Of a stretch of DNA of 64,000 nt, positions 27,669-38,234 are shown one piece after another. A program made the translations under genes and the position numbers. Under the pieces are notes generated by a model. The model was not told the origin of the DNA. It did not search any database and saw only the letters and a list, made by a program, of their open reading frames with translations. Origin of the DNA: Epilithonimonas lactis (GTDB lineage Bacteria > Bacteroidota > Bacteroidia > Flavobacteriales > Weeksellaceae); the NCBI RefSeq assembly GCF_900110605.1, contig NZ_FOFI01000001.1:682001-746000 (forward strand). Direction: 5' to 3'. Every line of letters starts with the position of its first letter. Positions within the stretch are counted from its first letter, which is position 1.

Positions 27669-28631
27669 ATGAAAAATTTCACTTCGGTTTACGATATAGA
27701 TAATTTGCAGGAAATCATTGCAAAAGCCTTAAAAATAAAAGAAAATCCATTAGAAAATCCAACCAAAGGAAAAGGGAAAACGATTGGTTTGGTTTTCCTC
27801 AATTCCAGTCTCAGAACAAGATTGAGTTCTCAAATTGCTGCTCAAAATTTAGGATTAAATGTCCTAACACTCAACGCCGCTCAAGAAGCCTGGAATCTGG
27901 AATTCGCTGATGGAACGGTGATGAACAGCGATACAGTTGAACACATCAAAGATGCCATCGAGGTTCTGAATCAATATTGTGATATCATCGCCGTAAGATG
28001 TTTCGCGGGAATGAAAAACAAAGCCGACGACGTGAACGAAAGTATTCTGAGCCAGTTCCTGAAACACGCCAAAGTTCCAGTGATTTCTTTGGAATCTGCG
28101 ACGCGTCATCCGTTGCAAAGTCTGGCAGATTGCATCACAATCACAGAAAATTGGACGGAAAATAGAAAACCAAAAGTCGTTTTGACTTGGGCGCCTCACA
28201 TCAAACCGATTGCGCAGGCTGTCGGAAACTCGTTCACAGAATGGATGCAACAAATGGATGTTGATTTTGTGATTGCAAATCCGGAAGGTTATGATTTGGA
28301 TAAAAATTTTACAAAGGATACGAAAGTGATTCATAATCAAGACGAAGCACTGAAAGATGCAGATTTTGTTTACGTTAAAAACTGGTCGTCATTTGAAGAT
28401 TATACAGCGATGCCGAAAGTTGACGAAAACTGGATGTTGAGCAATGAAAAATTGGAATTAACAAACAATGGAAAAGTGATGCATTGCCTTCCCGTCCGTA
28501 GAAATCTTGAATTGAGTGATGAAGTGGTGGATGGCGAAAACTCAATCATTTATCAGCAGGCAAAAAACAGAATTTTTTCTGCACAGGCTGTTTTCTCTGA
28601 AATTTTAGATGAGATTAATAGTAAAGATTGA
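27669..28631 (+). CDS. argF': N-acylornithine carbamoyltransferase (probably N-succinylornithine)
   Basis: 320 aa. Transfers the carbamoyl group to N-acylornithine to give N-acylcitrulline. LNSSLRTRLSSQ contains the carbamoyl phosphate loop in its acylornithine-specific SxRTR form, and MHCLPVRRN is the C-terminal signature, with Cys in the ornithine-side position. Aligned by eye with the Bacteroides fragilis succinylornithine enzyme, residue 90 is Val (MNSDTVEH); Pro90 marks succinylornithine and Glu92 of Xanthomonas marks acetylornithine use. Carbamoyl phosphate comes from carAB nearby. Substrate is therefore probably succinylornithine (inference). Confidence 0.9.
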   Translation: MKNFTSVYDIDNLQEIIAKALKIKENPLENPTKGKGKTIGLVFLNSSLRTRLSSQIAAQNLGLNVLTLNAAQEAWNLEFADGTVMNSDTVEHIKDAIEVLNQYCDIIAVRCFAGMKNKADDVNESILSQFLKHAKVPVISLESATRHPLQSLADCITITENWTENRKPKVVLTWAPHIKPIAQAVGNSFTEWMQQMDVDFVIANPEGYDLDKNFTKDTKVIHNQDEALKDADFVYVKNWSSFEDYTAMPKVDENWMLSNEKLELTNNGKVMHCLPVRRNLELSDEVVDGENSIIYQQAKNRIFSAQAVFSEILDEINSKD

Positions 28632-28652
28632 GAAATAAAATATCAATAGGAG

Positions 28653-28700
28653 CGGGCTTTAGCCCGTTTGTGAGGATGGGAATTAAATAGGCTTTAGCCG
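28653..28700. repeat. Palindromic GGCTTTAGCC hairpin repeats
   Basis: CGGGCTTTAGCCCG (28653-28666) and a shorter relative GGCTTTAGCC (28690-28699) lie in the 91-bp gap between the carbamoyltransferase and argB genes. Both can fold as small hairpins. No other function visible. Confidence 0.6.
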
Positions 28701-28722
28701 AAATATAAAGGCAAAACAATTA

Positions 28723-29514
28723 ATGCAAAAAGTACACATCATAAAAATCGGAGGCGCTTTAATCGATGATAAAAAATCATTGAAAGCTTTTCTAGAACAA
28801 TTTTCTCAAATCGGAGGCGCCAAAATCCTGATTCACGGCGGTGGAAAGATTGCAGAAACTTTGGCAGAAAAACTGAAAATCACACAGACGATGATTGATG
28901 GACGCAGGATTACCAACAAGAAAACTTTGAAGTTGGTGACGATGGTTTACGCGGGAAGAATCAACAAAAATATTGTGGCAAAATTGCAGAGTTTTAATTG
29001 CAACGCGATGGGATTTTCCGGCGCAGACGGCAATTTAATTCAAGCTGAAAAACGCCAGCATCCAACCATCAATTTTGGATTTGTTGGCGATATTAATGAA
29101 AAAAGCATCAATCACGAATTGATTACAAATATGATAAATCTGGGTTTGGTTCCGGTGTTTTCTGCAATCACTCACGATAAAAAAGGAAATCTGTTAAACA
29201 CCAACGCAGACACGATTGCCGGAACTATTGCTCAGGCTTTATCAAAAAATTTCGAGACAGAATTGTTGTTCTGCTTCGATAAAAACGGGGTTTTAGAAAA
29301 TGTGGAAGACGAAAATTCAAATCTTAAAACCATTAATAAAACTGAATTTTCTGAATTGAAATCGCAAGGAAAATTCCATAAAGGAATTTTGCCAAAACTC
29401 GAAAATGCTTTCAAAGCCAAAGAAAATGGCGTTCAGAAAGTATCTTTGATTAACGAGAAAAAACTGTCAGACCAAATAAAACAAGGAAATGAAGGAACTG
29501 AAATCTGTCTTTAG
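28723..29514 (+). CDS. argB: Acylglutamate kinase
   Basis: 263 aa, amino acid kinase fold. Phosphorylates acylglutamate with ATP. KIGGALIDD and ILIHGGGKIAETLAEKL (near residue 35-50) are the phosphate-binding loops; TNADTIAGTIAQAL is the conserved C-terminal region. Overlaps argE by 26 nt, so the two are translationally coupled. If the pathway is succinylated, this enzyme uses N-succinylglutamate. Confidence 0.93.
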   Translation: MQKVHIIKIGGALIDDKKSLKAFLEQFSQIGGAKILIHGGGKIAETLAEKLKITQTMIDGRRITNKKTLKLVTMVYAGRINKNIVAKLQSFNCNAMGFSGADGNLIQAEKRQHPTINFGFVGDINEKSINHELITNMINLGLVPVFSAITHDKKGNLLNTNADTIAGTIAQALSKNFETELLFCFDKNGVLENVEDENSNLKTINKTEFSELKSQGKFHKGILPKLENAFKAKENGVQKVSLINEKKLSDQIKQGNEGTEICL

Positions 29515-30571
29515 CAGAGAAGAACTTGCGGAAAATGCCGTCAAATTACTGAAAAAACTCATCGCAACACCATCTATGAGTCGCGACGAATACAACGCTT
29601 CGCTCATCATCGAAGGCTTTTTCAATGAGCATCAATTGACTGTCAACCGATTCAAAAATAACATCTGGGCAACCAACAAACATTTTGACGCCGGCAAACC
29701 ATCGATTCTCCTCAACACGCATCACGACACGGTAAAACCGAACAAAGCTTACACTTTGGACCCGTTCATTCCGGTGGAAAAAGACGGCAAATTATTTGGT
29801 TTGGGAAGCAATGATGCGGGCGCGTCTTTAGTAGCGATGGCGCAGACTTTTCTCTATTTTTATGAAGCCGAAGATTTGACTCATAATTTAGTAATTGCTT
29901 TGACAGCCGAGGAAGAAATCTCCGGTCTGGACGGCATCGAAGCCCTGTTTCCACAACTTCCGAACGTCGAATTGGCAATTGTTGGCGAACCTACAAAAAT
30001 GAATCTTGCGATTGCAGAAAAAGGTTTGCTCGTCATCGATGGCGAAATGCTGGGAACGCCTTCTCACGCTGCGCATCCGAACGATGACAATGCGATTGTG
30101 AAATGTATGAAGGATTTGCAAAACATCCTCGATTTCAAATTCCCGAAAGTTTCCGATTATTTGGGCGAGGTGAAAGTCACATTGTCAGTTCTCAACGCAG
30201 GAACGCAACACAACGTGGTTCCCGAAAAATGCAATTTCACATTGGATGTCCGCGTGACAGACGAATACACGAATCGCGAAGTTTTCGAAATCATCCAGTC
30301 GCAGATGAAATCCAAACTGACACCGAGGTCATTCCGTCTCAATTCCTCAAAAATCGACGTCAACCATCCGTTTGTTCAGGCTGGATTGGCGTTGGGCAGG
30401 ACAACTTACGGTTCGCCGACATCCTCGGACCAGGCGATTATTCCGTGCACATCGGTCAAGTTGGGACCCGGCGACAGCTTGCGTTCCCACACCGCGGACG
30501 AGTTTGTCTACATCGACGAAATCCGAGAAGGCATCGATGTTTACATTAAAATATTAGAGAAAGTTCTTTAA
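29489..30571 (+). CDS. argE: M20-family acylornithine/acylcitrulline deacylase
   Basis: 360 aa. Zinc-dependent M20 peptidase fold: NTHHDTVKP has the first His ligand, GLGSNDAGAS the bridging Asp, and TAEEEISGLDG the Glu-Glu pair. In Bacteroidota this enzyme removes the acyl group after carbamoylation, so the direct substrate may be acylcitrulline. The start ATG lies within argB. A nested inverted repeat fills the gap to argH. Confidence 0.88.
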   Translation: MKELKSVFSREELAENAVKLLKKLIATPSMSRDEYNASLIIEGFFNEHQLTVNRFKNNIWATNKHFDAGKPSILLNTHHDTVKPNKAYTLDPFIPVEKDGKLFGLGSNDAGASLVAMAQTFLYFYEAEDLTHNLVIALTAEEEISGLDGIEALFPQLPNVELAIVGEPTKMNLAIAEKGLLVIDGEMLGTPSHAAHPNDDNAIVKCMKDLQNILDFKFPKVSDYLGEVKVTLSVLNAGTQHNVVPEKCNFTLDVRVTDEYTNREVFEIIQSQMKSKLTPRSFRLNSSKIDVNHPFVQAGLALGRTTYGSPTSSDQAIIPCTSVKLGPGDSLRSHTADEFVYIDEIREGIDVYIKILEKVL

Positions 30572-30573
30572 CG

Positions 30574-30650
30574 GAAGTTAGAATTGAGAAATTAGAAATT
30601 AGAAAACCAATTTGGAATCTAACTTCTAACCTCTAAAATCTAATTTCTAA
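30574..30650. repeat. Nested inverted repeats between argE and argH
   Basis: GAAGTTAGA (30574-30582) pairs with TCTAACTTC (30618-30626), and TTAGAAATTAGA (30592-30603) pairs with TCTAATTTCTAA (30639-30650), both perfectly. Similar TAGAAATTAG-type words are common in the gaps of this genome. Confidence 0.65.
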
Positions 30651-30661
30651 AAATTATTAAA

Positions 30662-31966
30662 ATGAAAAAAATCTGGCAAAAAGACAATACGACAACCAAC
30701 GATTTGGTTACAAAATTCACAGTCGGGAAAGACCTGGATTTTGACGACAGATTAGCAAAATACGATGTGTTGGGCTCCATTGCCCACGCAAAAATGCTCG
30801 CAGAAGTTGGATTGATTCGACTGGATGAAGAGCACGCAATCGTGGCCGTTTTGGAAGAAGTTCTTTCTGAAATCGAAAAAGAAACTTTCGAAATCGATAA
30901 AACCGCAGAAGACATCCATTCTCAAATCGAAAATATCCTCATCGAAAAATTGGGCGAAACAGGAAAGAAAATCCACACCGCAAGGTCAAGAAACGACCAG
31001 GTTTTGACGGATATCAAATTATACTTAATTGACGAAATCAGAGAAATCACAGAACTGACCGATTCATTTTTTCAAATCCTGAAAGACAAAGCCAATCTTC
31101 ATAAAGACGTGTTATTGCCTGGTTATACGCATTTGCAGGTGGCGATGCCGTCGTCTTTCGGATTGTGGTTTGGCGCGTATGCAGAATCTTTGGTGGATGA
31201 TTTGGAATTGCTGTTTGCAACGAAGAATATCATTAATAAAAATCCACTAGGCTCGGCCGCGGGTTACGGTTCATCATTCCCGATTGACAGAGAAAGTACG
31301 ACTTACAAACTAGGTTTCAGAACTTTGAATCATAATGTGGTTTATGCGCAGATGACACGAGGGAAATCCGAGAAATTGTTGGCGAATTCGTTGTCGGTTT
31401 TGGCTGGAACTTTAAGCAAATTTTCTTACGATGTTTGTATTTATTTAAGTCAGAACTTTGATTTTATCAGCTTTCCAAAGGAATTCACAACTGGCAGTAG
31501 TATAATGCCACACAAGAAAAATCCGGATATTTTCGAATTGGTGAGAGCGAGATGCAACAGAATTCAAGCTTTGCCAAATGAATTGATTTTGGTGACGAAT
31601 AATCTGCCATCAGGCTATCACAGAGATTTGCAATTGACAAAAGAAATCCTTTTTCCGGCCATCGATTCTTTGAAAGAATGTCTTGAAATCCTGATTTACA
31701 CGCTTCCAAACATCGAAGTGAAAGACAATATTCTGGATGATGAAAAGTACAAATACATCTTCAGCGTAGAGAAAATCAACGAAGAAGTGAAGAATGGAAA
31801 GTCATTCCGAGATGCCTATATTCAAATCGGTCAGGAAATAGAAAAAGGCTTGTTCGAATACGATTACAAAGAACTCAATCACTCTCATCAAGGCAGTTTG
31901 GGAAACCTTTGCCTCGACGAAATCGAATATCAATTCAATAAAGTCAGAGATAAATTGTTGGGTTGA
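30662..31966 (+). CDS. argH: Argininosuccinate lyase
   Basis: 434 aa, fumarase/aspartase superfamily. Cleaves argininosuccinate into arginine and fumarate. The signature GSSIMPHKKNPDIFE near residue 280 holds the catalytic Ser and Lys. TARSRNDQVLTD is the conserved early region. Final enzyme of the cluster; the gene begins 90 nt after argE. Length a little below the common 450-460, but with all conserved regions present. Confidence 0.96.
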   Translation: MKKIWQKDNTTTNDLVTKFTVGKDLDFDDRLAKYDVLGSIAHAKMLAEVGLIRLDEEHAIVAVLEEVLSEIEKETFEIDKTAEDIHSQIENILIEKLGETGKKIHTARSRNDQVLTDIKLYLIDEIREITELTDSFFQILKDKANLHKDVLLPGYTHLQVAMPSSFGLWFGAYAESLVDDLELLFATKNIINKNPLGSAAGYGSSFPIDRESTTYKLGFRTLNHNVVYAQMTRGKSEKLLANSLSVLAGTLSKFSYDVCIYLSQNFDFISFPKEFTTGSSIMPHKKNPDIFELVRARCNRIQALPNELILVTNNLPSGYHRDLQLTKEILFPAIDSLKECLEILIYTLPNIEVKDNILDDEKYKYIFSVEKINEEVKNGKSFRDAYIQIGQEIEKGLFEYDYKELNHSHQGSLGNLCLDEIEYQFNKVRDKLLG

Positions 31967-32112: not shown

Positions 32113-32574
32113 TTAATCCAGTTTGAACTTGGTAGATTTTTTCACTTCAGCCAAAACAATAGAACTGTGATATTGCCCGATGTGAGGACTGTTTGAAATC
32201 ACATTCACAGTGAAATGATTGTAAGAATAAATGTCGTTTGCAAGGATTTTCAATTGATAATCATATTCGCCGGAAAGACTGATGATTTCTTGGACTTCAT
32301 CATATTTCGAGATATAATTTTCGAAATCTTTGAGCGTGTTTTGAGACTGCTCTTTTAGACGAACATTGCAATAAACAACAATATTGATTCCGAGTTTTTC
32401 ACGGTTGAGCAGGGCGACATATTTTTCTACAACGCCACTTTTTTCAAGGTTTTTGATACGCTCGTAGGTCGGCGTAAAAGTAAGTCCGATTTTTTCGGAG
32501 ATTTCCTTTACCGATAGCGTAGAATCTTCCTGAAGAAGGGAGAGAATTAATTTGTCTTTTTTGTCCAAACTCAT
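32113..32574 (-). CDS. Lrp/AsnC-family regulator
   Basis: 153 aa, normal length. The N-terminal helix-turn-helix is in DSTLSVKEISEKIGLTFTPT. The C-terminal RAM ligand-binding domain runs from about residue 70 (GINIVVYCNVRLKEQSQ to the end). Such proteins respond to amino acids. Its position between the arg cluster and pyrB/carAB, with both needing carbamoyl phosphate, makes control of one of them plausible, but nothing in the sequence proves it. Confidence 0.9.
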   Translation of the reverse strand: MSLDKKDKLILSLLQEDSTLSVKEISEKIGLTFTPTYERIKNLEKSGVVEKYVALLNREKLGINIVVYCNVRLKEQSQNTLKDFENYISKYDEVQEIISLSGEYDYQLKILANDIYSYNHFTVNVISNSPHIGQYHSSIVLAEVKKSTKFKLD

Positions 32575-32784: not shown

Positions 32785-32900
32785 TATCTTTGCACCCAAT
32801 GAATCTGGTACAGAATTTAGCGACATTAGTGTTTGGCAAATTTGCCGACAACAACAATATTTTTTATATTTAACGAAGTCTTTTAGGCTTCGTTTTTTTT
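32785..32900 (+). promoter_or_regulatory. pyrB promoter and UTP-type transcription attenuator
   Basis: The -7 element TATCTTTG lies at 32785-32792. Downstream are a palindrome GGCAAATTTGCC (32835-32846), a T-rich stretch with 11 T in 14 bases (32858-32871), and a terminator hairpin AACGAAG/CTTCGTT (32872-32894) with a run of Ts. pyrB begins 18 bases after that run. This layout parallels the E. coli pyrBI attenuator, where low UTP slows polymerase and lets the leader ribosome prevent termination. Regulation is inferred. Confidence 0.7.
32799..32873 (+). CDS. Putative pyrB leader peptide, 24 codons
   Basis: ATG at 32799 to TAA at 32871-32873, encoding MNLVQNLATLVFGKFADNNN followed by IFYI. The start is 6 bases after the -7 element, so translation may be leaderless. 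The last codons lie in the T-rich stretch and the stop codon overlaps the 5' arm of the terminator. A ribosome reaching the stop would cover that arm. No homologous peptide is known to me; reality depends on the attenuation model. Confidence 0.5.
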   Translation: MNLVQNLATLVFGKFADNNNIFYI

Positions 32901-32917
32901 ATTTAAAAATTTCAGAT

Positions 32918-33820
32918 ATGATTAAGCTTGCACGCGTCTCCACGGAGAGTATAGAAAAAATTTTACAGGAAGCACAGCAGTTTGCGGATGGTAAAGTCAG
33001 CAAAATTAAAGGTGATGTTTTCGCCGCGAACCTCTTTTTTGAGAATAGCACAAGAACCAAAACAAGCTTCGAAGTAGCCGAGAAGAAACTCGGTCTTCAA
33101 GTTATAGATTTTGAAGCTGATAAAAGCTCCATCGCAAAGGGTGAAACAATGCTTGATACGATTAAAACTTTGGAAGCTATCGGCGTGGAAGTGGCAGTTA
33201 TCAGGCATTCTGAAAAAAGATATTACGACCAGCTTCAAGATGCTAAATTAAGTATCGTAAATGCTGGCGACGGCGTTGGAAGTCACCCTTCACAGGCGCT
33301 TTTGGACGCTTTGACCATCATTCAGGAGTTTGGAAAGATAGAAGGTTTGAAGATTGGAATCGTAGGCGATGTGAAACACAGCCGAGTTGCCAATTCAGGC
33401 GCAGGATTGTTCAGAAGAATGGGCGCAAAAGTATATTTCTCTGGCCCAGAATTCTGGTTTGACGAAGGAATGTTGGTCAACGGAACTTATATGCAGTTCG
33501 ACGATTTGGTGAAAGAAGTGGATGTTTTGATGTTGTTGAGAATCCAGCACGAGCGTCACGAGAGAACTTTCAATTTCAAATCCGAAGATTATCTTAAGAA
33601 ATTCGGTTTGACGAAAGAAAGAGAAAAGAAAATGAAGCCAAACGCCATCATTATGCATCCGGCACCAATCAACAGAGGTGTGGAGATAGATTCGGAATTG
33701 GTGGAATGTGAAAGGTCCAGAATCTTCAAACAAATGCAGAACGGCGTTTTTGCAAGAATGGCGATTCTTAAATTTGACCTTGAGAATAAAGGTTTCGAGT
33801 TTGTCGACTCCCAAAATTAA
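32918..33820 (+). CDS. pyrB: Aspartate carbamoyltransferase, catalytic chain
   Basis: 300 aa. Joins carbamoyl phosphate to aspartate in the first committed pyrimidine step. The phosphate-binding ENSTRTKTSFE is near residue 45-55, and HPSQALLDALT and MHPAPINRGVEI are further active-site segments. No pyrI regulatory-chain gene follows, so control is expected at transcription through the preceding attenuator. A terminator lies after the stop, separating it from carA. Confidence 0.97.
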   Translation: MIKLARVSTESIEKILQEAQQFADGKVSKIKGDVFAANLFFENSTRTKTSFEVAEKKLGLQVIDFEADKSSIAKGETMLDTIKTLEAIGVEVAVIRHSEKRYYDQLQDAKLSIVNAGDGVGSHPSQALLDALTIIQEFGKIEGLKIGIVGDVKHSRVANSGAGLFRRMGAKVYFSGPEFWFDEGMLVNGTYMQFDDLVKEVDVLMLLRIQHERHERTFNFKSEDYLKKFGLTKEREKKMKPNAIIMHPAPINRGVEIDSELVECERSRIFKQMQNGVFARMAILKFDLENKGFEFVDSQN

Positions 33821-33854: not shown

Positions 33855-33961
33855 GAGTAAAAAAGACCGATGTCAGAAGTCTGATGACCGATGACAAAAA
33901 TGAAATAAATATTAGTGAAACCTCGGACTTCGGACTTCCGTCTTCCGACTTAAAAGTAAAA

Positions 33962-35050
33962 ATGAAAAAGAAATTAATATTAGAATCCGGAGAAGTATTC
34001 AATGGGGTAGGATTCGGAGCAGAACAGGAGACTGCCGGCGAAGTGGTTTTCAACACAGGAATGACGGGTTATCAAGAATTGATTTCCGACCCAAGTTATT
34101 GCGGACAAATCGTTTGTATGACCTATCCTTTGATAGGAAATTACGGCATCAACCGGGACGATTACGAAAGCATCGAACCTGCAATCAAAGGTTTGATTGT
34201 AAAAGAATTGTGCGATTTGCCTTCCAATTTCCGAACTCAAATGACCTTGGATGAACTTTTCAAAAAGAAAAATCTATCCGGAATCTCAGGAATTGACACG
34301 AGAAGACTGACGAGAATTCTTCGCAACAAAGGTGTTGTGAAAGGCAAAATAGTAAATGCTGAAACCGATGACAATCAAACGGTTGAAGAGCTTAAGAAAA
34401 CCACTTTCCCAATCGACCAGGTAGAATCTGTTTCCACAAAAACATCTTATGCAAGTCCTGGAAGAGGTTTCAAAGTGGTGTTGGTAGATTTCGGTTCCAA
34501 GTTGGGAATCATCCGCGAATTATCTCAAAGAAATTGCGACATCATCGTGGTTTCTCAGGATACAACCGCAGAAGAGATTTTATTAATGGACCCAGACGGA
34601 ATAATGCTTTCCAACGGTCCCGGCGACCCGGAAGATGTGAAAGGTGCCTCAGAATTGATTAATGGATTGCTCGGAAAAGTGCCGATTTTCGGGATTTGTT
34701 TGGGTCATCAATTGATTGGTCTGGCTTGTGGCGCAAAGACTTACAAACTGAAATTCGGTCACAGGGGTGGCAATCACCCGGTTTTGGATTTAGAAAAAAA
34801 TAAAGTGGCCATTACTTCTCAGAATCACGGTTATGCAATCGACCAGGAATCTTTGAAAGACACAGACTTAATCGAAACACACATCGCCTTGAACGACAGA
34901 ACCAACGAAGGTCTGAAACACAAAATTCATCCTTGTTTCTCAGTTCAATATCACCCGGAAGCAAGTCCAGGTCCAGAGGATGCGAATTATCTATTTGATG
35001 ATTTTATTGAATTAATGGAGGAGTTTAAATCTAATCAAGTAAAAAAGTAA
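33962..35050 (+). CDS. carA: Carbamoyl-phosphate synthase small (glutaminase) subunit
   Basis: 362 aa from the ATG at 33962; the longer frame to 33884 is repeat-like sequence. The C-terminal class I glutamine amidotransferase domain has the nucleophile Cys in [11 protein letters not shown], and the His-Glu pair in [12 protein letters not shown]. The N-terminal half matches the CarA-specific domain ([19 protein letters not shown]). Supplies ammonia to CarB for carbamoyl phosphate. carB follows 2 nt later. Confidence 0.97.
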
Positions 35051-35051
35051 A

Positions 35052-38000
35052 ATGGCAAAGCGTACAGACATAAAAACAATTTTAGTAATCGGCTCAGGTC
35101 CTATCATCATTGGCCAAGCTGCGGAATTTGATTATTCGGGGACACAAGCTTGTCTTTCCTTGAGAGAGGAAGGTTACAGCGTGATTCTTATTAATTCCAA
35201 TCCGGCAACAATAATGACGGATAAAGAGATTGCCGACAAAGTTTATATCGAACCGATTTCTCTGGAATTTGTTTCCAGAATCATCAGAAAAGAACGTCCG
35301 GATGCCTTGTTGCCAACTTTAGGTGGACAAACCGGACTTAATATGGCCGTGGAATTACAGAAATCCGGAATCCTGGAGGAATGTAAGGTGGAAGTTCTAG
35401 GAACCAAATTAGACGCTATCAATCAGGCCGAAGACAGAGACCTTTTCCGCGAATTGATGCACGAATTGAACGAGCCGGTTCCAGATTCCGACATCGTAAC
35501 AACCGTTGAAGGTGCGATTGATTTTGCTAATAGAATCGGTTATCCAGTGATTGTTCGCCCCGCTTTTACAATGGGTGGAACAGGTGGTGGAATTGCCGCA
35601 ACCGAACCCGAACTTCGTGAAATTGCTGAATTGGGATTGAAATATTCTCCCGTAACGCAATGTCTGATAGAGAAATCCATTGCAGGTTTCAAAGAAATCG
35701 AATACGAAGTGATGCGTGACAAAAACGACAACGCCATCGTGGTTTGTAATATGGAAAACATCGACCCGGTTGGCGTTCACACAGGAGATTCAATTGTTGT
35801 TGCGCCTTCGCAGACACTTTCTGACAGAGAATATCAGATGCTGAGAAATGCATCACTCAAAATAATTCGAGCATTGGGAATCGAAGGTGGTTGCAACGTT
35901 CAGCTCGCTCTCGACCCGCATTCTTATCAATATTATATCATCGAAGTAAATCCAAGAGTTTCGCGTTCATCGGCTTTGGCGAGTAAAGCAACTGGTTATC
36001 CGATTGCTAAAATTGCAGCTAAAATTGCAGTTGGATTGACATTGGACGAAATCAAAAATCCTGTAACCGGAACGTCTTACGCTTGTTTCGAGCCAGCTTT
36101 GGATTATGTAGTGACCAAGTTTCCAAGATTCCCATTCGATAAATTTGAGACGGCTGACAGAAGATTGTCAACACAAATGAAAGCAACGGGAGAAGTAATG
36201 GCCATCGGAAGAAACTTCGAAGAGTCTTTGCACAAAGCCATCCGTTCTTTGGAAACCGGACTTCGCCATTTGGGATTAAAAACAAAACAGGCTTTAGCCC
36301 TTACCGACGAGGAAATTGAAAGAAGGATTCGCGTTTGTGATGACGAGAGATTGTTCATCATCGGTGACGCTTTGAGAAGAGGATACGATTGGGAACAGAT
36401 TGTAGAATGGAGCAAAATCGATAAATTCTTCATCTGGAAAATCAAGAAATTAATTGATTTCGAGAAAACAATTGTAGATAACAAGTTTGATAAGGAGACG
36501 CTTATTGAAGCCAAGAAATTAGGTTTTGCTGACCTTAATATCGCTCATCTTTGGGAAACGACACAACGTGAAGTTTTCAATTTCAGAAAAGAAAATGGCG
36601 TGATGCCGGTTTACAAAATGGTGGATACTTGCGCGGCAGAATTTGAATCTGAAACGCCTTATTTCTACGGAACTTACGAAGAAGAAAATGAAAGTGTGGT
36701 TTCTGACAAGGAAAAAATCATCGTTCTTGGTTCAGGTCCAATTAGAATTGGGCAAGGTGTTGAGTTCGATTATGCTACGGTTCATTCGGTTTGGGCGATT
36801 CAGCAGATGGGTTACGAGGCGATTATCATTAATAATAATCCGGAGACTGTTTCCACAGACTTCTCGATTGCAGACAAATTATACTTCGAACCATTGGCAG
36901 AAGAAGACGTGATGAACATCATTGAACTCGAAAAACCAAAAGGTGTTGTGGTTCAGTTTGGCGGACAAACCGCTATTAATTTAGCAGATAAATTATCGGC
37001 TCACGGCGTTCAAATCTTGGGAACTTCACTCGAAGATTTAGACAGAGCGGAGAACAGAGATAAATTTGAGAAAGCGCTTCAGGAACTGGGAATTCCACAG
37101 CCATTAGGGAAAACTTCGACTTCAAAAGAAGAAGCAATTGTGATTGCCAACGAAATTGGTTATCCGGTTTTGGTGCGTCCAAGTTATGTTTTGGGAGGAC
37201 GAGCGATGGAAATCGTTTATACGGAGAAGGAACTTTCGCATTATATGGAAAATGCGGTGGAAGCCAGTCCCGACCAACCAGTTTTGATTGACCGATATTT
37301 GACTGGTCAGGAAGTGGAAGTAGATGCAATTTGCGACGGCGAAACAGTTGTCATTCCTGGAATTATGGAACATATCGAAAGAGCTGGTGTTCATTCCGGA
37401 GATTCAATCGCGGTCTATCCACCACAACATTTGACGGAAACTCAAATCAAAACTTTAGAAGATTACACGATAAGATTAGCTAAGGGCTTGAATGTGATTG
37501 GATTAATGAATATCCAATACGTGATTTCCAAAGGTGAAGTTTTCGTGATTGAAGTGAATCCGCGTTCGTCCAGAACCGTTCCTTTCTTATCCAAAATCAC
37601 AGATGTTCCAATGGCAAATCTTGCAACGAAAGCAATTTTGGGAGCAAAACTAAAAGATTTGGGTTACACTTCCGGATTGATTCCGAACAAAGAAGGAATC
37701 TTCGTGAAAGTTCCGGTTTTCTCTTTCAGCAAATTGACGAAAGTGGATATCTCTCTCGGACCAGAAATGAAATCTACAGGCGAAGTAATGGGGAAAGATT
37801 CAACCTTCGAAAAAGCCTTGTACAAAGGTTTAATCGGAGCAGGAAGAAAAGTGCCGACGCACGGTTCCATCTTATTCACAGTCGCTGACCAGGACAAAGA
37901 AGAAGCGTCTGAGATTGCGAGAAGATTCCATACGATTGGTTTCAGAATTTGGGCGACAGAAGGAACGGCGAAGTATTTCGAGGAAAAAGGAATTCAAACC

Positions 38001-38234
38001 AAAATCGGTTACAAAATTGGGGAAGAGGATGTCAATCTGATTGATTTGATTCAAAAAGGAAAAGTTCAATACGTTGTCAATACGACCACCAAAGGAAAAC
38101 AAGCCGAAAGAGACGGTTTCCAAATCCGAAGAATGAGCGTGGAAAACGGTGTTCCTTGTTTGACATCAATGGATACAGTCGAAGCGATTTTGAAGGTGAT
38201 TGAGAGTATGACTTTCAAAATGGAGGCGATGTAA
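35052..38234 (+). CDS. carB: Carbamoyl-phosphate synthase large subunit
   Basis: 1060 aa, full length. Makes carbamoyl phosphate from bicarbonate, ammonia and two ATP, feeding both pyrB and the acylornithine carbamoyltransferase. Two ATP-grasp halves are visible: [14 protein letters not shown] in the first and [15 protein letters not shown] in the second. [17 protein letters not shown] and [17 protein letters not shown] are the repeated N-terminal signatures. An MGS-like regulatory domain ends the protein (from about residue 930). Confidence 0.98.

Follow-up and report, generated by a model that had tools for sequence, protein, structure and literature searches.

The pyrB gene of Epilithonimonas lactis, which encodes the catalytic subunit of aspartate carbamoyltransferase, is preceded by a short leader built like a transcription attenuator, and this raises the question of what signal such a leader would sense and how it came to stand ahead of a pyrimidine gene. 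We analysed a stretch of 64,000 nucleotides (the window), in which the leader and the genes that follow it lie on the forward strand. A -7 promoter element of the TAnnTTTG type, TATCTTTG, was read at positions 32785-32792. The -7 box of Flavobacterium psychrophilum is reported at -12 to -5 (PMC9723704), so transcription is expected to start at 32797 with a 5' UTR of only two nucleotides (32797-32798), giving a near-leaderless mRNA. The leader ORF of 24 codons, MNLVQNLATLVFGKFADNNNIFYI, occupies 32799-32873, with its ATG at 32799-32801 and its TAA at 32871-32873. Within it were found a candidate pause hairpin, TTGGCA-AATT-TGCCGA (32833-32848; stem TTGGCA/TGCCGA), which holds the palindrome GGCAAATTTGCC (32835-32846), and a T-rich stretch, TATTTTTTATATTT (32858-32871; 11 T in 14 bases), a candidate UTP-sensitive pause region. 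An intrinsic terminator, AACGAAGTCTTTTAGGCTTCGTT, with a 10-bp stem and a 3-nt loop covers 32872-32894, and a T-rich tail follows it up to 32900; its first base falls within the leader stop codon. A preliminary description of this DNA had named the -7 box, the 24-codon ORF, the palindrome, the T-rich stretch and the terminator overlapping the stop codon, and each of them was recovered at the position it had given.

The gene downstream, at 32918-33820, was assigned as pyrB with scores above the cut-offs of two NCBIfam models (NF002032, 354.8 bits; TIGR00670, 291.9 bits). It is followed by carA (33884-35050, TIGR01368) and carB (35052-38234, TIGR01369), both above their cut-offs and, judging from the spacing, probably part of the pyrB operon. 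Just upstream of pyrB-carA-carB lie arginine genes (27669-31966), among them argB, argH, an N-acetylornithine carbamoyltransferase-like gene scoring slightly below the cut-off and an ArgE/DapE-like deacylase gene also scoring below it, and an Lrp/AsnC-type gene on the opposite strand (32113-32574) separates this group from pyrB. Arginine and pyrimidine genes adjoin here, and both pathways use carbamoyl phosphate.

The fold of the leader (32785-32917) is moderate, with a z value of -1.74 and 10 of 200 shuffles folding equally well, and 14-mers with at least 11 T are common in the window (124 of 63,987). A terminator scan returned 2 sites in 500 bp against 0.1 expected, the leader terminator being one of them. 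An ATG this near to the promoter is unusual in Bacteroidota: leaderless mRNAs are reported as 5.5% of those examined in F. psychrophilum (PMC9723704), and 5' UTRs shorter than 10 nt as about 3.7% in Bacteroides thetaiotaomicron (PMC7366714). Judged by its recurrence in 25 of 26 genera and its uniqueness among comparable sites of the same genome, both detailed below, the combination of leader parts is not due to chance.

Relatives of pyrB were found in all 23 genomes of the genus and in 262 of 296 Weeksellaceae genomes (E 1e-40). Among 50 chosen Weeksellaceae genomes, 41 carried a relative, representing 25 of 32 genera, while nine (G029, G030, G039, G042, G049, G050, G052, G058, and G060) gave no match at E 1e-12, and seven genera gave no match at all; the organisms lacking a match are possibly pyrimidine auxotrophs or possess a different pyrB. 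We scanned 100 upstream regions, a set that holds some genomes twice and comprises the window's own region, 59 named loci, and 40 stretches from 42 pyrB places, the two left out being G037 (genus g16) and a fragment of G076; the scan did not extend to the 21 Bacillaceae loci L091-L111. Promoter, ATG, ORF, and terminator were present together in 96 of the 100 regions, corresponding to 69 distinct leaders, with a chance site in L151 not counted. Counting the window's genus, 26 Weeksellaceae genera gave a pyrB match, and in 25 of them this layout stands ahead of the gene; since these genera are kin, the conservation counts are not independent of each other. The four regions in which the standard layout was not found all belong to genus g16 (L150-L153). 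Its pyrB is divergent (51-53% identity), a terminator lies about 70 nt upstream together with T-rich sequence in three of the four loci, and in two loci a frame without an ATG is open through the terminator. Judged by eye, g16 may have a longer variant of the leader that lacks an ATG start.

The arrangement of the leader ORF is largely kept among the 69 distinct leaders. The gap between the -7 box and the ATG is 6 nt in 62 of them, 5 nt in six, and 7 nt in one. In 59 leaders the stop codon precedes the terminator arm by 1-7 nt, in three it falls within the terminator, and in five beyond it; in two of these five (L084 and L135) the frame reaches pyrB without a stop. In the last two leaders the stop comes 11 or 17 nt early. 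Translation of 67 of the 69 ORFs would thus reach the arm or its immediate vicinity. ORFs that stop at or just before the arm have 18-26 codons. Of 25 genus representatives, 23 keep frame 0 free of stops up to 10 nt ahead of the arm, against one for frame +1 and seven for frame +2.

The encoded peptides, by comparison, drift strongly. Their median identity between genera is 26% versus 14% for shuffles, and pairwise counts, from which leaders of unequal length were omitted, gave 57 synonymous versus 399 non-synonymous differences for 15 Epilithonimonas leaders and 0 versus 217 for 11 Chryseobacterium leaders. Purifying selection on the leader codons was not found within either genus, so the case for translation is built on the frame and the placement of the stop. 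Because the peptides drift and their changes are mostly non-synonymous, it is not the residues that are under selection, and the selected features appear to be the frame, the end of the ORF, the hairpin, and the T-rich bases. Such drift agrees with a ribosome that serves as an obstacle travelling along the leader, and argues against an arrest peptide or the sensing of an amino acid.

The RNA elements show a comparable pattern. When 29 aligned leaders were analysed with RNAalifold, the terminator alone was detected, with compensatory changes at five of nine consensus pairs. The drifting hairpins escape alignment by MAFFT and were therefore tested genus by genus against dinucleotide shuffles. 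Over 25 genus representatives, the best upstream hairpin has a mean of -4.96 kcal/mol versus -1.24 kcal/mol for the shuffles, lower than the mean of any of the 500 shuffled sets; taken singly, hairpins reached p <0.05 in 15 genera and had p >=0.05 in the other 10. The distance from the end of the hairpin to the terminator arm is 15-34 nt (median 22). Stems vary by genus (GGCA/TGCC, CGGTT/AACCG, GGGCG/CGCCC, ATGGCT/AGCCAT), so that pairing and place are conserved between genera and sequence is not. Over the 14 nt that adjoin the arm the T fraction is 0.67 versus 0.29 in the remaining leader and is higher in 24 of 25 genera, and of the 300 bases in the best T-rich 12-mers of the 25 genera, 221 are T, 69 are A, 7 are G, and 3 are C. 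A U-rich region inside the leader ORF and after the hairpin can thus be read in the window's leader and in most others. By the preliminary description, its reading was to be given up if close relatives did not conserve the leader ORF. This ORF and the T-rich stretch are kept throughout the family despite strong drift, and the hairpin is kept in most leaders, failing in one without a stem within the set limits (L073) and in four with unstable stems only (L088, L119, L129, and L131).

An intrinsic terminator lies between the promoter and pyrB, as pyrBI-type attenuation demands. In 24 of 25 genera the terminator and pyrB are 17-38 nt apart, and no -7 box is found between the two in 24 of 25, so pyrB transcripts from the leader promoter must pass the terminator. 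In genus g4 (L134 / L087), about 100 extra nucleotides stand at this place, giving a gap of 124 nt. Genus g25 (L137) has a second -7 box, TAAATTTG, located between the terminator and the pyrB ATG and only a few bases from the latter, from which a leaderless pyrB transcript may arise. An antiterminator RNA was considered and rejected: pairing of leader segments with the terminator arm is no better than chance, the longest match having a mean of 5.6 bases versus 5.77 in shuffles, and this favours occlusion of the arm instead.

To place the layout in context, we looked at the same genome and at other Bacteroidia. In the window's genome (G000), the arrangement TANNTTTG-N6-ATG occurs at 111 sites versus 67 for a reversed control, an excess pointing to some tens of leaderless genes. 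Ninety-two of the 111 sites were read, 72 of them with an ORF of at most 60 codons, and the pyrB site is the only one among the 92 with an ORF of 15-45 codons that ends no more than 7 nt before a terminator arm. Among other Bacteroidia, 60 regions upstream of pyrB, each 780-1300 nt long, were searched (20 from Flavobacteriales and 40 from further families within the class), and none shows the layout. These regions contain nine exact -7 boxes with an ATG 4-7 nt downstream, and none of the nine is followed by a terminator near the end of the ORF. Six of them (L162, L166, L178, L186, L190, and L200) open frames of 178-186 codons located 553-572 nt before pyrB, which is the size and place of pyrR. 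In these six regions pyrR may be translated from leaderless mRNA, and the pyr operon may thus have had a near-leaderless start before the attenuator arose.

The distribution of PyrR offers a possible reason for a leader of this kind. PyrR (model NF003549, E 1e-20) was detected in none of 52 Weeksellaceae genomes from 33 genera, while positive controls were matched; the window's genome gave two NF003549 matches only, at about 20 bits versus a cut-off of 138. All 42 genomes examined from other Flavobacteriales, representing 42 genera, encode a PyrR above the cut-off on the same strand and upstream of pyrB, at a distance of 25-105 nt in 40 of them and of 248 and 492 nt in the remaining two (G403 and G349). 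Loss of PyrR in the Weeksellaceae would leave a gap that such an attenuator would fill. In a tree of 46 PyrB proteins, the 14 from Weeksellaceae form one clade (support 96/99), located within a 100/99 group together with Bacillaceae and g16 and apart from other Bacteroidota. The sampling consisted of Bacteroidota, 11 Bacillaceae loci, and one E. coli sequence, so the donor is not fixed by this tree, in which the long branches of g16, E. coli, and one other sequence were flagged. E. coli PyrB branches far from that of the Weeksellaceae. PyrB of four Bacteroidia genomes (families f29, f42, f64, and f69) groups with the E. coli protein, and Bacteroidota seem to hold at least three PyrB lineages. 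The grouping of Weeksellaceae with Bacillaceae PyrB suggests, as the simplest account, that a resident pyrR-pyrB pair was displaced by a Firmicutes-type pyrB and that the leader took over control. The Weeksellaceae operon resembles PyrR-controlled pyr operons, those of Bacillus and probably of other Flavobacteriales, in that pyrB is the controlled gene, and its PyrB groups with that of Bacillaceae, but it differs from them in having no detected PyrR and a leader without an Rfam match.

The closest counterpart in construction is the pyrL-pyrBI leader of E. coli, in which a leader ORF before pyrB likewise contains a hairpin, about 10 nt, and a T-rich stretch followed by an intrinsic terminator and pyrB; in the pyrL region these are the hairpin GCGTCT/AGACGC, 10 nt, TTTTTCTT, and the terminator. 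The two differ in that pyrL has 44 codons, a Shine-Dalgarno-like GGGAGG upstream, and a frame that runs through the terminator, whereas the Weeksellaceae ORF is near-leaderless and mostly stops at the 5' arm, in which case it is also shorter. In E. coli pyrB is followed by pyrI, and in the window by carAB. Compared by eye, the two leaders have no sequence likeness, and their resemblance is probably convergent. The earlier proposal of UTP-dependent attenuation like that of pyrBI is supported by the shared order of parts, the retained ORF and T-rich stretch, and the lack of a detected PyrR, with one detail that differs from E. coli, the stop of most ORFs at the arm instead of past it.

What the genomes themselves show is which parts are present and in what order, that Weeksellaceae conserve them, and that PyrR was not found. 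On this basis we consider it likely that the leader is a UTP-sensing attenuator that operates through coupled transcription and translation, in the manner of E. coli pyrBI; the start site, pausing, coupling, UTP signal, and termination are steps that we infer. Transcription would start near 32797, and a ribosome would load at once on the near-leaderless ATG. RNA polymerase would clear the hairpin and, at low UTP, slow down in the T-rich stretch, allowing the ribosome to catch up. When the polymerase moved on, the ribosome at the end of the leader ORF would cover the 5' arm of the terminator, as expected from the footprint of a ribosome at the stop codon, and pyrB-carA-carB would be transcribed. 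With plentiful UTP, the polymerase would outrun the ribosome, the terminator would fold, and transcription would end at about 32894-32900. In E. coli, formation of the terminator is reported to be prevented only if transcription and translation are tightly coupled over pyrL (PMC5021804). The role of the hairpin is the least sure step here, as it is in E. coli, where it is disputed: a later study reports that the pyrL pause is unlikely to depend on a hairpin, although the pause site it describes lies about 24 nt further upstream than the original one (PMC9291695).

The strongest rival keeps the build and the coupling but has the attenuator respond to growth state or to ribosome loading in general, with the T-rich stretch being ordinary AT-rich sequence; pyrB would then go up whenever polymerase slowed relative to the ribosomes. 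An ORF and a terminator alone would suffice for it, and T-rich 14-mers are, as noted, not rare in the window; we nevertheless regard it as unlikely, since the T enrichment before the arm recurs in nearly all genera, the tract holds just 10 C or G per 300 bases, and the controlled genes serve UTP synthesis. Attenuation by an amino acid or a nascent peptide, with ribosomes stalling at Ile, Phe, Tyr, or Asp codons or at an arrest peptide, could draw on the final six residues of the leader peptide, among which I, F, N, and Y abound, and on clues to leader-peptide attenuation reported for amino-acid operons of F. psychrophilum (PMC9723704). Attenuators of this class, such as the trp type and Bacteroid-trp (RF01692; listed as a candidate RNA in PMC2864571), share with the present leader an ORF, translated in the trp type, and a terminator. 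Here, however, there is no run of codons for a single amino acid, no mutually exclusive antiterminator, and no Rfam match; T-rich bases account for I, F, and Y, the last six residues of the 25 genera include few Asp (5), Gln (2), and Arg (4), and the peptides diverge as described above, which makes this reading quite improbable.

Termination might also be decided by a protein or ligand that binds the leader RNA, in the manner of PyrR, which attenuates the pyr operons of Bacillus, or that binds the palindromic DNA, the ORF being incidental. Hairpins and palindromes are typical binding sites, but PyrR was not detected in the 52 genomes, no Rfam family matched the window at gathering thresholds, the PyrR binding-loop RNA included, the hairpin keeps only pairing and place between genera, and frame 0 is kept open, so we give this possibility very little weight. 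Hardly any weight falls on an unregulated partial terminator that lowers pyrB output, or on a source of a small RNA, which would leave the kept frame, the end of the ORF, the hairpin, and the spacing from the -7 box to the ATG unexplained across 25 genera.

We found no pyr attenuator of Bacteroidota or Weeksellaceae in the open-licence literature, and the pyrB leader is probably a form of pyrBI-type attenuation not previously described. If UTP-sensitive coupled attenuation is confirmed here, it would have arisen a second time, probably independently, and in a phylum whose promoter is of another type. Bacteroidota rarely use Shine-Dalgarno sequences, and we know of no established case of transcription-translation coupling among them, for which this leader offers a ready test. 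On balance we lean slightly towards the broader account, in which pyrR disappeared from Weeksellaceae as the resident pyrR-pyrB gave way to a Firmicutes-type pyrB, and the enteric solution evolved anew, with a near-leaderless ORF and a ribosome that chases the polymerase across a U-rich pause region. Bacteroidota would then couple translation to transcription and use this as a UTP sensor. The family would then present a case, extending across its genera, of a cis-acting leader replacing a regulatory protein.
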